From Hyphomicrobiales bacterium (GTDB taxonomy: Bacteria > Pseudomonadota > Alphaproteobacteria > Rhizobiales > Beijerinckiaceae), in contig CAKNFJ010000001.1 in NCBI GenBank assembly GCA_930633495.1, positions 2,689,001-2,753,000 on the forward strand: a stretch of 64,000 nucleotides of DNA, in the 5' to 3' direction. The number at the start of each line of letters is the position of its first letter. Within the stretch, counting starts at the first letter, position 1. The notes beneath the pieces were generated by a model, which was not told where the DNA came from, ran no database searches, and worked only from the letters and a program-made list of their open reading frames with translations. The translations under genes were made by a program, and so were the position numbers. Below, one piece after another: positions 2,339 to 39,194 of this stretch.

Positions 2339-3523
2339 TCAGCCGCGTTCGAGCAGCAAGGCCTCGGCCGCGCGGCTGAGCAGCGGCGCCGCGGCGCCAT
2401 GGATTTCGTAGAGATGGCTGGCGGGCACGCCGACGAGATCGGGCACGGCGAAGCCGTCCATCGTGCCTTCCGCACGGAACAGCGTGTTGAAGCGGGCCCA
2501 GAGCTGCGGATGGGCCGAGAACGGGCCGCTCACGGCGATGCGGGCCGGAAAAAGCAGGCGGCAGGCATTGGCGAGCGCGCGGGCGAGGAGCCCGGCCGCC
2601 TGCTCGATGTCCGGCAGCGACAGGAGGTCGAGGCCGGCGAGCTGGCGGGCAAGGCGGACTTCGTCCTGATCGAGATCGGGCCAGCGGCGGCGCAACGCCG
2701 GCAAGAGCGACCAGAGCGCGGCGCCGGTTTCGAGGCAGGCGGAGTTGCCGCAGCCGCAGCGGCGCTCGCCCAGCGCGGCCAGCCGCCAGTGACCGATCTC
2801 CCCGAAGGAGCCGGTGGGAGCGAAGGGCTCGCCGTCGACGGCGTAAGCCAGCCCGATGCCCCAGCCCCAATGCAGCAGGATGGTGCCGCCGGCGAAATGC
2901 TCGGGCTCGCGGGCGGCGCGGGCGCGCAGTTCGGCATCGAGATTGCGGCAGATGGCGACCGGACCGGCAACGGGTGCGAGAACGGCGGCGATGTCGAGGC
3001 CGCGCATGCGCGGCCAGCGCGAGGCCATCAGCCACTGGCCCTGTTGCAGGTCGATCAGGCCCGACAGCGAAACGGCCGTGCCGGCATGGCTCATGCCCGA
3101 TGGCATCGCGTCGAGCAGGTTCTGGGCGAGTTCCGTCATCGCTTCGGCGATGGTGGCATTGTCGGCGTCGCTGGCGATGGCGCGACGCCGCTCGGCGACG
3201 AGATGGCCGTTAAGGTCGACCAGCGCCCCCGAAAGCGATTGGCTCGAGACATAGATCACCGATGCGCCGATGCGCCGCGTATGAGCGACGAGGATCGCGG
3301 GCGGCCGCCCGCGACCGCTCGCCTCCCCGACCGTCTCGATCACGAGGCGACGGTCGATGAGATCGCCGACGACGCGCGAGACGCTGGTCGAACGCAGCTG
3401 GAGGATGCGCGCGATGTCAGTGCGCGAATGGGCCTCGCCGTTCAGGATCAGCCGGTAGATGCGGGTGCAGTCCCGGTCGTGCGCCAGCGAGATGCGGTTT
3501 TCGTCGATCGTCAGCAGTGACAA
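2339..3523 (-). CDS. ROK-family transcriptional repressor (NagC/XylR type)
   Basis: The 394-residue protein has an N-terminal winged helix (residues about 20-65, with LQLRSTSVSRVVGDLIDRRL as recognition region) joined to a ROK sugar-binding domain. The ROK zinc motif is visible as CGCGNSACLE (residues 256-265) after GEIGHW (241-246). Such proteins repress sugar or amino-sugar genes and are released by a sugar phosphate or sugar. It is divergent from nagB-nagA with a 116-base gap, and downstream lies a solute-binding protein on the same strand, so it probably controls both directions. The canonical DxGGT ATP-site motif at the start of the ROK domain is degenerate, consistent with regulator rather than kinase function. 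Confidence 0.9.
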   Translation of the reverse strand: MSLLTIDENRISLAHDRDCTRIYRLILNGEAHSRTDIARILQLRSTSVSRVVGDLIDRRLVIETVGEASGRGRPPAILVAHTRRIGASVIYVSSQSLSGALVDLNGHLVAERRRAIASDADNATIAEAMTELAQNLLDAMPSGMSHAGTAVSLSGLIDLQQGQWLMASRWPRMRGLDIAAVLAPVAGPVAICRNLDAELRARAAREPEHFAGGTILLHWGWGIGLAYAVDGEPFAPTGSFGEIGHWRLAALGERRCGCGNSACLETGAALWSLLPALRRRWPDLDQDEVRLARQLAGLDLLSLPDIEQAAGLLARALANACRLLFPARIAVSGPFSAHPQLWARFNTLFRAEGTMDGFAVPDLVGVPASHLYEIHGAAAPLLSRAAEALLLERG

Positions 3524-3639: not shown

Positions 3640-4386
3640 ATGATCGAGATGCATGTTGCCTCCGACAAGGACGCGCTCGGCCGGCAGGCGGCGGCGCTCG
3701 GCGCACAGGCGATCCGGGACGAAATCGCCCGCCATGGCGCGGCGACGATCATCGTGGCGACCGGCGCCAGCCAGTTCGAGATGCTCAAGCATCTCGTGGC
3801 GGCCGAGGGCATCGACTGGTCGAAGGTCACCGCCTTCCATCTCGACGAATATGTCGGCCTGCCGGAGAGCCATCCGGCGAGCTTCCGCCGCTATCTGCGC
3901 CTGCGTTTCATGGCGCCGCTCAGCAACGCACCGACCTTCATCCCCGTGGATGGCGAGGGCGACCCGGCGGCTGCGGTGAAGCAGCTCAACGAGCAGATCG
4001 CCGGCAAGCGCATCGCGGTCTGCTTCGCCGGGATCGGCGAGAACTGCCACCTCGCCTTCAACGACCCGCCGGCCGACTTCGATACCGAGGAGCCCTATCT
4101 GGTCGTGAATCTGGACGATGCCTGCCGGCAGCAGCAATTCGGCGAGGGCTGGTTCCCGAGCTTCGATGCGGTGCCGCAGCAGGCGATCTCGATGAGCATC
4201 CGCCAGATCCTGAAGAGCGAACTGATCGTCCTCTCCGTCTCCGATACCCGCAAGGCCGCGGCAACGAAGGCGGCGCTGGAAGGGCCGGTCAGCAATTTGG
4301 CGCCGGCTTCGATCCTGCAGACGCACAAGCGGACCGTGCTGTTCATCGATCCGCCGGCCGCCTCCCTGCTGACCCGGAAGGGCTGA
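3640..4386 (+). CDS. nagB: Glucosamine-6-phosphate deaminase
   Basis: This converts glucosamine 6-phosphate to fructose 6-phosphate and ammonia in the cytoplasm. The 248-residue protein has the NagB sugar-phosphate isomerase fold: [11 protein letters not shown] (residues 39-49) for phosphate binding, [10 protein letters not shown] with the catalytic acid pair D69-E70, and [12 protein letters not shown] with the ring-opening histidine H137. Length is slightly shorter than E. coli NagB (266), as in many alphaproteobacterial forms. It precedes nagA by 2 bases and the two are surely one operon; the order nagB-nagA with a divergent ROK repressor is a classical arrangement. An AAGG about 11 bases upstream is a rather weak ribosome site. 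Confidence 0.88.
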
Positions 4387-35060: not shown

Positions 35061-35254
35061 CGTCTATCCCCCAAAGGCCGCCATGAGATGGCGCTGTCGG
35101 TTGGAGCCGCGATTGCGGCGGCGGTCAACCACGGCGCCCGCCGGCCCATGCAGGGAGGCGCTGCATGCGACGCATTGCCCGGGAGCGGGAACCGTCGTCG
35201 CCTTTGCCGGGTTGCCCTTCCGAATTCGCAGGTTGATCGAGGGGGTGACCAGCC

Positions 35255-36367
35255 ATGGCCATGGCGAACGCCGAAAAGCCACGCAATGCCGCGACCGGAC
35301 CGCATGGCGCTTCCGAGCTGCCCTCGGTCGAGGTCACCAGTTACAATCTGGAGATCCGCGACGATGACGGCTTCGTCGGTGACAAGGCCAGCCGTGGCGC
35401 CTTCGTCGAGCATCTCGACGCGTTGCGCAGCCATCTCAAGCGCAATGGCGACGATCCGCTGAAGGGCAAGACGGCCGAGATCGGCAAGAAGGAACTCGAT
35501 GCGCTGGTGAAAGAGGGCGATGCCGCCGAGGCCGCCCTGGTGCTGAGCGCGGTCGAAGGCTTCGCCCAGTCGCTCGCCTTCGTCATCCGCCGTTTCGCGC
35601 GCCTCAAGAGCTGGGCGAGCGTCGAACGGATCGTCGTCGGCGGTGGTTTCCGCGAGAGCCGCGTTGGCGAGCTCGCCATCGCGCGCGCCGCGATCATCCT
35701 GCGCACCGACGGCCGCGACCTCGATCTCGTGCCGGTCAGCCATCATCCCGACGAGGCCGGGCTGGTCGGCAGTGCCCATCTCGCGCCGAAATGGATTTTC
35801 GAGGCCTATGACAGCCTGGTGGCGGTCGATATCGGCGGCTCGAACATCCGCGCCGGGATCGTCGAGCTCCGGCAGCGGAAGGCTCCCGACCTCAGTCGGG
35901 CGCGCGTCTGGAAGTCGGAGCTCTGGCGCCATGCCGACGAGCAGCCGAGTCGCGACGAAGCGATCGAGCGGATGGGCCAGATGCTGCGGGACCAGATCGG
36001 GATGGCCGGGAAGGAGGGCCTGAAGGTCGCGCCCTTCATCGGCGTCGGCTGCCCCGGCCTGATCGAGCCCGACGGCGGAATCGAGCGCGGCGCCCAGAAT
36101 CTGCCGGGCAATTGGGAAAGCAGCCGCTTCAACCTCGTCGACAGCATCCGCACGCTCGTGCCGGAGATTGGCGATCACGAGACGGATATCGTGATGCACA
36201 ACGACGCGGTCATCCAGGGGCTGAGCGAGATGCCGGCGATGCAGGACGTCGAGAATTGGGCGGTTCTCACCATCGGAACCGGGCTCGGCAATGCGAGCTA
36301 CCGCAACCGTGCCCGGGCCAAGGCGGGCAAGGAAACGGACAAGGCGACGGGTAAGCGCAGACCCTGA
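35255..36367 (+). CDS. ROK-family sugar-kinase-like protein with circularly permuted motif order
   Basis: GAGGGGG nine bases before the ATG at 35255 supports this start, giving 370 residues. Motifs of the ROK kinase fold are present but in swapped order: the C-terminal type elements come first, LVKEGDAAEAALVLSAVEGF (84-103), IVVGGG (126-131) and DEAGLVGSAHLAP (166-178). After a short linker come the N-terminal elements: AVDIGGSNIRAGIVEL (190-205), GVGCPGLIEPDGG (263-275), HNDAVIQGL with the probable catalytic D317, and TIGTGLGNASYR (339-350). The zinc motif is missing; there is only one cysteine, C266. The tail is basic. Probable cytoplasmic sugar kinase; substrate unknown. Confidence 0.8.
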   Translation: MAMANAEKPRNAATGPHGASELPSVEVTSYNLEIRDDDGFVGDKASRGAFVEHLDALRSHLKRNGDDPLKGKTAEIGKKELDALVKEGDAAEAALVLSAVEGFAQSLAFVIRRFARLKSWASVERIVVGGGFRESRVGELAIARAAIILRTDGRDLDLVPVSHHPDEAGLVGSAHLAPKWIFEAYDSLVAVDIGGSNIRAGIVELRQRKAPDLSRARVWKSELWRHADEQPSRDEAIERMGQMLRDQIGMAGKEGLKVAPFIGVGCPGLIEPDGGIERGAQNLPGNWESSRFNLVDSIRTLVPEIGDHETDIVMHNDAVIQGLSEMPAMQDVENWAVLTIGTGLGNASYRNRARAKAGKETDKATGKRRP

Positions 36368-36569
36368 CAGAGGCCGTGCCATCTTCAGGTCGTGTTTTGC
36401 GGCAATGAGCGGGCGGTGGCCGGAGCCCGGCTCGCCATGCCCGTTTGTCATCCGAGGAGCTTCCGCCTTGCCGGCCGCCGAATTCCGCTCTCCGTCTTGC
36501 CTTGCGGGCAAGGCTGTGCCGAGGGTCGAGCCTGAGCCGAATCATCCCGGGGAGCAGGGTCGCATCCGC

Positions 36570-39194
36570 ATGGCAGGGCGCATGGCATACGCACCGTTCC
36601 AGAGCCTGAAGCGACTTCTGGCCGCCGGTCTGCTGCTGCTTGTGCTGGCGTTGGCCGCAACGACCGCCTCCTTTGCCCAGACGGCGGCAACCCCGGCCGA
36701 TCCTGGCAGCACGCGGGCGCGGCTCGACGCTGTTCGCACCGAGCTTGCGCAGATCGAGGCGACGCTGGCCTCTCCCGAGGCGAGCGATTCGGAATTGCAG
36801 CGACAGCGTATCCGCCTGCAGCCCTCACTCGATCAGCTGCGCGTCATCATCGACGAGCAGGCGCCGCGCGTCGAACAGGCCAAGCTCCGACTCGACCAGC
36901 TCGGCGCGAAGCCGGATGCCAATGCGCCGGCCGAGAGCGCCGAGATCACGCGCGACCGCGAAGCCCGGGCCAAGGCCTATGCCGACGCCGACGAGACGTT
37001 GAAGATCGCCAAGGCCTCGCTGCTCCAGGCGGAACAGTTGCAGAGCGCGATCGGCGACAAGCGCCGCGAGATCTTCGCCAAGACGCTGTTCGCCGCTGGT
37101 CCCTCCGTCGCCAATCCGGAAGTCTGGACCAATGCCATCGCGACCGCGCCGGAGGATCTGCGGGCGTCCGGCTATATCTTCGGCGGCTGGCTGGAGGGCG
37201 TGCGCGATGCCTTTTCCGGCACGCGCGGCGGCGTCGTGGCGCTCGCCCTGCTCGGCGCGATCCTGCTCTATGTCGCCCGGGCGCGTTATCTGCCGCGATT
37301 CAAGGCCCGCTTCGGCAATCTGCAGGACACCGGCAACCTGCACTGCCTCTACATCGCGCTCGCCCATATCGTTGCTGGCGCCGCGCCGCCGGTGCTGGCG
37401 AGCTGGCTGATCTACAAGGCGCTGAGCACGACCGGGCTCCTGCCGCCGCGCATCCAGCCGGTGATCTGGGCGGTGGTCGTCGGCCTCGCCTTCTTCGCCT
37501 TCGTGCAGGCCATGGCCGATGCGCTGTTCGCGCCGTCCTCGCCGCAGCGGCGCCTCGTCAAGGTGATGGACTCGACCGCGCGCAGCGTGGTCTGGATCGC
37601 GAGTTCGCTCGCGGCCGTGATGTCGGTCGGCAAGGTCTTCGAGGCCTGGTTGCAGGCAATCGCGGCCGGCCTCGCCATCTCGATCATCGTCAAGGCGTTC
37701 TTCGCCGTCCTGTTCGCGCTCGCCCTGATCGCCGGGCTCTACCAGATCCGCGACGATGACGAGGTCGAGCAGGAGGCCTGCCTCGGCCCCTATGTGCCGG
37801 TGGACGGGGCAAGCCTCGGCCCGGTACGCATCCTCGGCTGGATCATCGGCTTCGCGATCATCGCCGCGACGTTCACCGGCTATGTCATCTTCGCCGCCTT
37901 CCTGGCCGAACAGACGATCTGGATCGGCATCGTCGCCTGCCTGTTCCTGCTCGTCTTCCAGTTCATCGACCTCGGCATCCCGCGGCTGCTGACCGGCAAG
38001 GGCCGCTTCGCCCTGACGCTGAAGGCCGGCATGGGCCTGCGCAGCACCACGCTCGACAAGGTCTCAGTCATTGCGGTCGGCGCCTTGAAGCTGCTGCTGA
38101 TCGTCGTCACGGTGCTGATGGTGCTGGCGCCATGGGGGCTGGAATCGACCGATTTCCTGGTTTCGCTGCGCGCCGCCTTCTTCGGCTTCCAGGTTGGCGG
38201 CGTCACCATCTCGCTCTCGACCATCGTCGTCTTTGCCTTCGTCTTCGGCCTTGGCATCGCCGCGACGCGGGCGCTGCAGCGCTGGCTCGAAAACCAGTTC
38301 CTGCCGACGACGGCGCTTGATCCCGGCCTGCGCAACTCGATCACCACGGCGGCGGGCTATGTCGGCTATATCGGCGCCGTGGCCATCGCGGTCTCGGCCG
38401 TGGGCCTGAGCCTCGAGCGCCTGACGCTGGTCGCCTCGGCGCTCTCCGTCGGTATCGGTTTCGGCCTGCAATCGGTGGTGTCGAACTTCGTCTCGGGCCT
38501 GATCCTGCTCTGGGAGCGGCCGATCCGCGTGGGCGATCAGGTGCTGGTCGGCGACATCGAGGGCATCGTCAAGCGCATCAATGTCCGTTCGACCGAGATC
38601 GCGACCTTCGACCGCGCGACGGTGATCGTCCCCAATTCGAACCTGATCTCGGGCGTGGTGCGCAACCGCGTCCGCAACGACCGGACCGGGCGCGTCCTGA
38701 TCGCGCTTTCGGTGCCGCGCACGCTCGATGCCGGGCAGGTGCGGGCGATGCTGTCCGAGGTCGCCTCGAACCATGGCGACGTGATGCAGAAGCCGCCTCC
38801 GGCCGTGCAGTTCAAGAAGCTCGGCACCACGACGATGGATTTCGAGCTGGTCTGCGTGGTCGCGGAGGTCGAGATCGCCGGGCGCGTCACCAGCGACCTC
38901 AATTTCGCGATCCACAAGCGCCTCGCCGAGCTGGAGCCGGTCGCGGCCACGCCGGAACTGATGGTGCGCGGGCTGGAGGGTGTCGAGCACTCGCTCGACA
39001 GCATCGCCGCGGCGGTCGGGCGGGGCGAGGCCCGCGGCCGGACGAAGCGTGCGGCGGCAAAGCCGCCGGCCGCCAATGGGACGCGCCCGTCGCGCAAGCC
39101 GGTCGAGGCCGAGGAGACCGAGGACGAGGCCGAGGCGGCGAAGCCCGCTCCCGCTCCGGTTGCAGAGCCCGCCAAGGACGACAGCAAGGAATGA
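36570..39194 (+). CDS. Large MscS-family mechanosensitive channel with DUF3772 domain
   Basis: Starting at 36570 gives 874 residues; the frame extends to 36291 but that part overlaps the ROK-like gene. The order is a Sec signal (LLLLVLALAATTASFAQ), a coiled-coil-rich periplasmic DUF3772 region (about 30-190), about ten membrane helices, then the MscS domain: SIGVGFGLQSV-type pore segment (ALSVGIGFGLQSVVSNFVSG), RPIRVGDQVLVGDIEGIVKRI and ATVIVPNSNLISGVV. The last 60 residues are a charged, Ala/Lys/Glu-rich cytosolic tail. It releases solutes on osmotic downshift from the inner membrane. A CAP-domain gene starts 4 bases downstream. Confidence 0.9.
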   Translation: MAGRMAYAPFQSLKRLLAAGLLLLVLALAATTASFAQTAATPADPGSTRARLDAVRTELAQIEATLASPEASDSELQRQRIRLQPSLDQLRVIIDEQAPRVEQAKLRLDQLGAKPDANAPAESAEITRDREARAKAYADADETLKIAKASLLQAEQLQSAIGDKRREIFAKTLFAAGPSVANPEVWTNAIATAPEDLRASGYIFGGWLEGVRDAFSGTRGGVVALALLGAILLYVARARYLPRFKARFGNLQDTGNLHCLYIALAHIVAGAAPPVLASWLIYKALSTTGLLPPRIQPVIWAVVVGLAFFAFVQAMADALFAPSSPQRRLVKVMDSTARSVVWIASSLAAVMSVGKVFEAWLQAIAAGLAISIIVKAFFAVLFALALIAGLYQIRDDDEVEQEACLGPYVPVDGASLGPVRILGWIIGFAIIAATFTGYVIFAAFLAEQTIWIGIVACLFLLVFQFIDLGIPRLLTGKGRFALTLKAGMGLRSTTLDKVSVIAVGALKLLLIVVTVLMVLAPWGLESTDFLVSLRAAFFGFQVGGVTISLSTIVVFAFVFGLGIAATRALQRWLENQFLPTTALDPGLRNSITTAAGYVGYIGAVAIAVSAVGLSLERLTLVASALSVGIGFGLQSVVSNFVSGLILLWERPIRVGDQVLVGDIEGIVKRINVRSTEIATFDRATVIVPNSNLISGVVRNRVRNDRTGRVLIALSVPRTLDAGQVRAMLSEVASNHGDVMQKPPPAVQFKKLGTTTMDFELVCVVAEVEIAGRVTSDLNFAIHKRLAELEPVAATPELMVRGLEGVEHSLDSIAAAVGRGEARGRTKRAAAKPPAANGTRPSRKPVEAEETEDEAEAAKPAPAPVAEPAKDDSKE

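Follow-up and report, generated by a model that had tools for sequence, protein, structure and literature searches.

A ROK kinase relative with circularly permuted halves and a candidate general-stress promoter

We analyzed a 64,000-nucleotide stretch of contig CAKNFJ010000001.1 from a Hyphomicrobiales bacterium (hereafter the window), in which one gene codes for a protein that is almost certainly a circularly permuted relative of ROK kinases, the C-terminal half of the usual chain being placed before the N-terminal half. An initial annotation of the gene had noticed the reversed motif order, and this claim holds: the two halves match ROK profiles in swapped order, beyond chance. We consider it rather likely that the protein retains the usual two-lobed fold and uses ATP to phosphorylate a sugar or a related osmolyte, and that a general-stress (sigma-EcfG) promoter induces its gene.

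The Pfam ROK profile (PF00480) matches residues 189-350 only, which align with positions 2-140 of its 294; at 33.6 bits the protein passes the curated cut-off of 22.9, via half of the profile. The NCBIfam model NanK matches the other half weakly (E 0.011), residues 99-177 corresponding to model positions 210-286 of 288. We then compared a family profile of 42 sequences (41 after filtering) with one of 27 ordinary ROK kinases using hhalign; these 27, out of 36 loci tried, passed a motif filter and are mostly top-scoring matches, so that the ROK family is sampled unevenly, with too much weight on one part of it. Residues 188-345 align with ROK positions 9-144 (P 8.5e-12), and residues 57-179 align with ROK positions 200-307 (P 3.1e-6), in reversed order relative to the first segment. 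The next-ranked alternative alignment reaches only P 0.26. When short windows of the family profile were scored, those around the permuted GGG, C-terminal helix, DxGG, PG, ND and GTG motifs picked the matching ROK positions best, the GGG and DEAGLVG windows choosing the ROK GGG and C-terminal-helix windows with z of 5.1 and 4.9. The QNLPGNW window picks a place in ROK kinases other than the one its position implies, and windows within residues 15-56 have no significant ROK counterpart in this scoring. An equivalence of GF.GD.AS with the ROK GC.E...S region, plausible by eye, ranked third and non-significant and was discarded. The canonical order (first lobe, GTG, ExGH/zinc region, GGG, C-terminal helix) is thus not kept, the two halves being reversed. 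All motifs lie where the annotation had put them, namely GGG, DEAGLVGSAHLAP, DIGGSNIRAG (192-201), GCPG, HND and IGTGLGN (340-346) (Table 1).

A predicted structure of the whole protein has a predicted local distance difference test score of 90 and shows the two-lobed ROK fold. In the models of the whole protein and of the first half alone, both halves are placed on one solved ROK chain (3r8e), with the junction at its residue 145. Residues 25-186 of the first-half model superpose on 3r8e 145-297, and the two halves tile the chain without a gap. The first ~180 residues consequently occupy the C-terminal ROK lobe in the model, as expected from the annotation. The old C-terminal helix is predicted to be joined by a short linker to the old N-terminal strand, and the cut is predicted to fall within the second lobe, after its second strand and before its third. 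Pseudo-symmetry lets the halves of an actin fold align to each other, and the first 180 residues could instead be another kind of actin-fold half, alike by this symmetry, in a fusion of unlike halves. In line with such a fusion, superpositions of the first-half model score lower (Z 6-8), some rows span both lobes, and a Foldseek search with this model found no match at E <= 0.001. We nevertheless regard it as very unlikely, given the window scores for GGG and DEAGLVG, the hhalign placement of residues 57-179, and the gap-free tiling of 3r8e. A circular permutation is supported by the profiles, by the whole model, by the first-half model with its weaker scores, and by the conserved motif order described below. 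Pseudoxanthomonas-type members of the 42-sequence alignment end at or just past the last predicted strand, without the lysine-rich, low-complexity tail that follows this strand in many alphaproteobacterial members (for example L041, L032 and L087).

We compared the protein to other enzymes for which structures have been reported. Canonical half order is found in the ROK kinases, such as human N-acetylmannosamine kinase (2yhy/2yhw) and the putative sugar kinase from Cytophaga (3r8e). Among PDB entries, the polyphosphate/ATP-glucomannokinase 1woq matches best when single sequences are compared (residues 187-347, E 8.3e-5); it likewise has canonical order, and the significant part of the match is confined to the first lobe. 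The top Foldseek matches are the tandem mammalian hexokinases 5hex and 1dgk (402-433 columns), where a C-half probably precedes an N-half at the repeat junction. They differ in that they comprise two complete canonical repeats of together ~900 residues, and the root-mean-square deviation over the whole alignment is ~30 A.

A homologue search, as suggested in the initial annotation, yielded 475 family sequences: that of the window, 360 from protein searches, 80 named loci and 34 further loci. Of these, 471 are distinct, and 450 still differ when only residues 120-345 are compared. GGG precedes DxGG and DxGG precedes GTG in 473 of the 475, two sequences being unscored (P0157 and L008). None has the canonical order, a zero that is partly due to selection since the set was built from the top matches of permuted queries. 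Throughout the family, the permuted form is stable. An assembly error or mis-called frame has next to no credence: the unusual order itself and the broken frames in two of 12 class-sample carriers (L008, L009) are all that speaks for it, and against it the same order recurs in single-contig genomes and on plasmids, with dN/dS (nonsynonymous to synonymous substitution) ratios of 0.095-0.309 to eight relatives indicating purifying selection. The misassembled or fused frame in homologues, raised in the annotation as a possible counter-argument, did not appear, and this reading is already contradicted.

Members come from Bosea, Bradyrhizobium, Afipia, Rhodopseudomonas, Nitrobacter and Tardiphaga among the Alphaproteobacteria, with plasmid carriers in Rhizobium, Sinorhizobium and Shinella (207 of 72,556 plasmid records). 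Further sources are Acidovorax (Betaproteobacteria in the NCBI taxonomy), Polaromonas, Rhodoferax and Bordetella, as well as Pseudoxanthomonas (Gammaproteobacteria in the NCBI taxonomy), Luteimonas, Lysobacter and Stenotrophomonas. The family spans Alpha-, Beta- and Gammaproteobacteria. Whole-genome samples within Pseudomonadota covered the class, the order and the phylum. We counted 12 carriers among 289 genomes of the class, including the genome under study, and 25 among 397 of the phylum, six of them outside the class; the order sample has 49 carriers among 297 genomes, and two more genomes hold fragments only (G808, G810). Not counted as carriers were two of the 14 matching genomes in the class sample (L013, L014) and 12 of the 37 in the phylum sample, which gave low-score first-lobe matches; five of the latter, when read (L121-L125), proved to be ordinary ROKs. 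The locus set A1 excludes L009 (broken frame), L013, L014 and L015. Two full copies of the permuted gene occur in G440 and G450, and a second, partial copy in G235. In a first-lobe tree of 27 permuted and 27 ordinary ROK sequences, the permuted ones form one clade (support 0.84), which is consistent with one permutation event; under midpoint rooting the ordinary ROKs are not a clade. The open-licence literature searched, as far as the portions of the matching papers covered, describes no permuted ROK kinase.

We next asked what the permuted chain retains of the active site. NagK of Plesiomonas binds the metal ion through D6 and uses D105 as the base; T10 and T132 hold phosphates, while S78, N104, D105, E154, H157 and D187 contact the sugar (PMC10031466, in the parts consulted). 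Counterparts assigned by motif are kept almost throughout the family: D192 in 475 of 475 sequences, D317 in 474, and a threonine or serine at position 196 in 474. N316 and GGG are likewise found in all 475, and G341-T342-G343 in 474/474, so that the residues by which ROK kinases handle ATP, Mg and the base (DxGG(T/S), ND, GTG, GGG) are in place. The ExGH motif, to which we take NagK E154 and H157 to belong, is missing: E[ILVFMW]GH occurs in 0/475 family members vs 27/27 ordinary ROKs, and the looser E.GH in four, three of them at residues 11-16, again vs 27/27. The zinc-type C.C..C pattern is found in 1/475 vs 27/27, bearing out the loss of the zinc cluster seen in the initial annotation. Its statement that all ATP and sugar phosphate residues remain stands for the ATP and Mg residues and for the sugar side of the first lobe, and fails for the second lobe, where ExGH is absent. 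The reversed order, together with the lack of ExGH and of a zinc site, puts the protein outside the canonical ROK family, and a hexose substrate is not to be assumed given the missing ExGH motif.

Segment 17-56, located where ordinary ROKs have their ExGH/zinc region and without ROK counterpart, has invariant or nearly invariant residues of its own (H17 in 467/468, G42 and D43 in 475/475), and an invariant W224 and H226 are added in the second half. We infer that residues of this segment and W224/H226 bind the substrate. In catalysis, D192 would probably hold Mg and D317 would deprotonate the acceptor hydroxyl, with the GG(S/T) and GTG loops holding phosphates and the GGG loop lying at the adenosine; a changed acceptor would be recognized by the new segment, H17 and G42-D43 replacing ExGH. 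Kinase activity towards an altered acceptor is probable, conservation providing an argument of moderate strength for activity. Regulators often lose the catalytic base, the Mg ligand and the phosphate loops, whereas both loops, the base and the Mg ligand are kept here, and a Pfam scan of the 370-residue chain finds no DNA-binding family at E <= 1. A kinase descendant that serves as a non-phosphorylating sensor or regulator, binding ATP or ADP and a sugar, appears quite improbable on these grounds, even though the ExGH and zinc motifs are lost and the ROK family includes regulators, according to the part of PMC12696579 consulted.

Upstream of the gene, a promoter-like site (Table 1) fits the sigma-EcfG consensus GAAC-N16,17-C/GGTT given in the part of PMC4814048 consulted, with a spacer of N17. 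The pattern GGAAC-N15-18-GTT is found within 300 bp upstream in 37/127 loci (duplicates included, window excluded) vs 1.8% of random windows (223 of 12,700). For the narrower interval of -40 to -100 we de-duplicated the loci and divided them into the Bosea group (L016-L028, nine titled Bosea), other alphaproteobacteria, the Nitrobacteraceae group (L029-L095 minus L036, L069 and L074, including some metagenome-assembled genomes) and Beta/Gammaproteobacteria. The pattern is present in 13/13, 17/27, 0/60 and 0/6 loci, respectively; 29 controls with a permuted -35 element average 0.03, 0.41, 0.03 and 0.07, with a maximum of 3. The published consensus gives 11/13, 16/27, 0/60 and 0/6, with averages of 0.00, 0.36, 2.64 and 0.00 for 11 controls. 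These controls hit 0-2 loci in the Bosea and other alphaproteobacterial sets, and one reaches 29/60 in the Nitrobacteraceae group, presumably because a variant site there begins with GCAA. This variant, G[AC]AACC-N15-17-GTT, lies at a similar place in 45/64 Nitrobacteraceae-group loci, mostly 50-70 bp upstream, and may be a sigma site or an operator. Many of the variant sites contain an internal GGTTCC that makes them near palindromes.

The genome under study encodes NepR (PF18557, E 3.2e-13), on which its likely possession of the stress cascade is based. As would fit the PhyR-NepR-EcfG regulon, many loci have a promoter-like site of the published consensus at a similar distance from the gene; the Nitrobacteraceae group lacks the strict site. 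The gene is probably stress-induced in many alphaproteobacteria, the sigma-EcfG promoter being expected to switch it on under general stress, and the promoter-like sites argue with moderate strength for a stress role.

Could the permuted protein instead be an ordinary housekeeping hexokinase or glucokinase, its promoter-like site being incidental or minor? The QNLPGNW loop and HND are intact, UniRef names some members glucokinase, and neither the Nitrobacteraceae group nor the Beta/Gamma loci have the strict stress promoter. On the other side stand the complete absence of E[ILVFMW]GH, the promoter-like site in every Bosea-group locus, and the presence of other glucokinases. Glk-type glucokinases (PF02685), which share a superfamily with ROK kinases, differ from the permuted protein in having canonical order. 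The protein does not match PF02685, and a Pfam scan up to E 1 lists ROK only. Two Glk-type genes occur in its own genome, neither of them the permuted gene. Among 24 carrier genomes checked, two of which have broken permuted copies, 19 also possess a Glk-type glucokinase; for this reason glucokinase as the sole function is not favoured, and we consider the housekeeping role unlikely.

For a stress-related kinase, a hint to a substrate comes from plasmids, where 11 regions were picked by hand from the 207 records and 10 annotated. The permuted gene is head-to-head with otsB in six of the 10, four from Rhizobium (L184, L189, L193, L194) and two from Shinella (L190, L192), with a NAGGN-osmoprotectant peptidase gene in one (L188) and with a ferritin-like gene in another (L186); none of these partners is present in L185 and L191. 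The strict promoter site is absent at the two Shinella otsB loci. Among 96 other loci, trehalose genes lie nearby in three (L029, L069, L144). These arrangements suggest that, under stress, the enzyme may act alongside trehalose and further osmoprotectants. In L184, L189 and L193 the otsB pair is near the record end; in L189 and L194 repABC is close by. In positions 1-7029 of L069, a Hyphomicrobium metagenome-assembled genome, the permuted kinase gene comes after same-strand genes for a GH15 trehalase-like protein, OtsA, a pfkB kinase and OtsB.

More tentatively, a single ancient permutation may have founded a separate enzyme family among the actin-fold sugar kinases. Falling in the sugar-recognition region, the cut would have cost the protein its ExGH motif and zinc site and opened it to a new, osmolyte-related substrate; the enzyme might now serve the alphaproteobacterial general stress response and have a comparable function in Beta- and Gammaproteobacteria. 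Automatic labels such as "ROK family protein" and "glucokinase" rest on a half match, and hide the reversed order and the lost sugar motif. A two-lobed kinase fold that is naturally permuted and has kept its catalytic residues offers a direct test of how lobe closing depends on chain connectivity, and the stress promoter-like site together with the otsB pairing provides a concrete lead to the substrate in soil- and plant-associated bacteria.

Table 1. Positions in the window of the permuted kinase gene, its motifs and its upstream site
Feature	Position	Strand	Basis or remark
Sigma-EcfG promoter-like site GGAACC-N14-CGGGTT	35188..35213	+	67 bp before start codon; GAAC at -66
Permuted ROK-type kinase gene	35255..36367	+	ATG start, 370 aa plus stop
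H17	35303..35305	+	candidate substrate residue
Second-lobe (C-terminal ROK) equivalent and C-terminal helix, placed first; residues 17-186	35303..35812	+	profile comparison, first-half model
G42-D43	35378..35383	+	in family-specific segment 17-56; D43 candidate substrate residue
GGG adenosine loop, residues 129-131	35639..35647	+	motif
DEAGLVGSAHLAP, residues 166-178, ROK C-terminal helix	35750..35788	+	motif, short-window profile scores
DIGGSN phosphate-1 loop, residues 192-197; D192 predicted Mg ligand	35828..35845	+	motif; role by PMC10031466 (parts consulted)
GCPG, residues 265-268	36047..36058	+	motif
QNLPGNW first-lobe loop, residues 281-287, putative sugar side	36095..36115	+	family conservation
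HND, residues 315-317; D317 predicted catalytic base	36197..36205	+	motif; role by PMC10031466 (parts consulted)
GTG phosphate-2 loop, residues 341-343	36275..36283	+	motif
Last predicted strand, residues 346-351; permuted core stops here	36290..36307	+	predicted structure

A conserved neighbourhood was also considered as a guide to function and set aside, the window's neighbours being common to Bosea-group loci only. In Bradyrhizobium and its kin, the gene adjoins those for ribosomal protein L21, a GNAT protein and obgE (Pfam on single examples), a context that says little about function, and Beta/Gamma contexts differ from both. Downstream in the window, the open frame at 36291-39194 (+), whose left boundary need not be the start codon, encodes an MscS-type mechanosensitive channel with DUF3772 and reaches back into the end of the kinase gene. 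A relative lies near the permuted gene in 11/80 loci (L016-L026). Tag counting had suggested that the Sinorhizobium meliloti member is SMb20472, which is wrong: the part of PMC7268258 consulted assigns this tag to arcB2. No transcriptome entry was found for the S. meliloti member. Elsewhere in the window, positions 2339-3523 (-) encode a ROK protein of ordinary order with, by eye, an N-terminal helix-turn-helix look. Beside it are a glucosamine-6-phosphate isomerase gene (3640-4386, +) and a stretch that by eye looks NagA-like, and the protein is probably a NagC-type regulator of an N-acetylglucosamine cluster.
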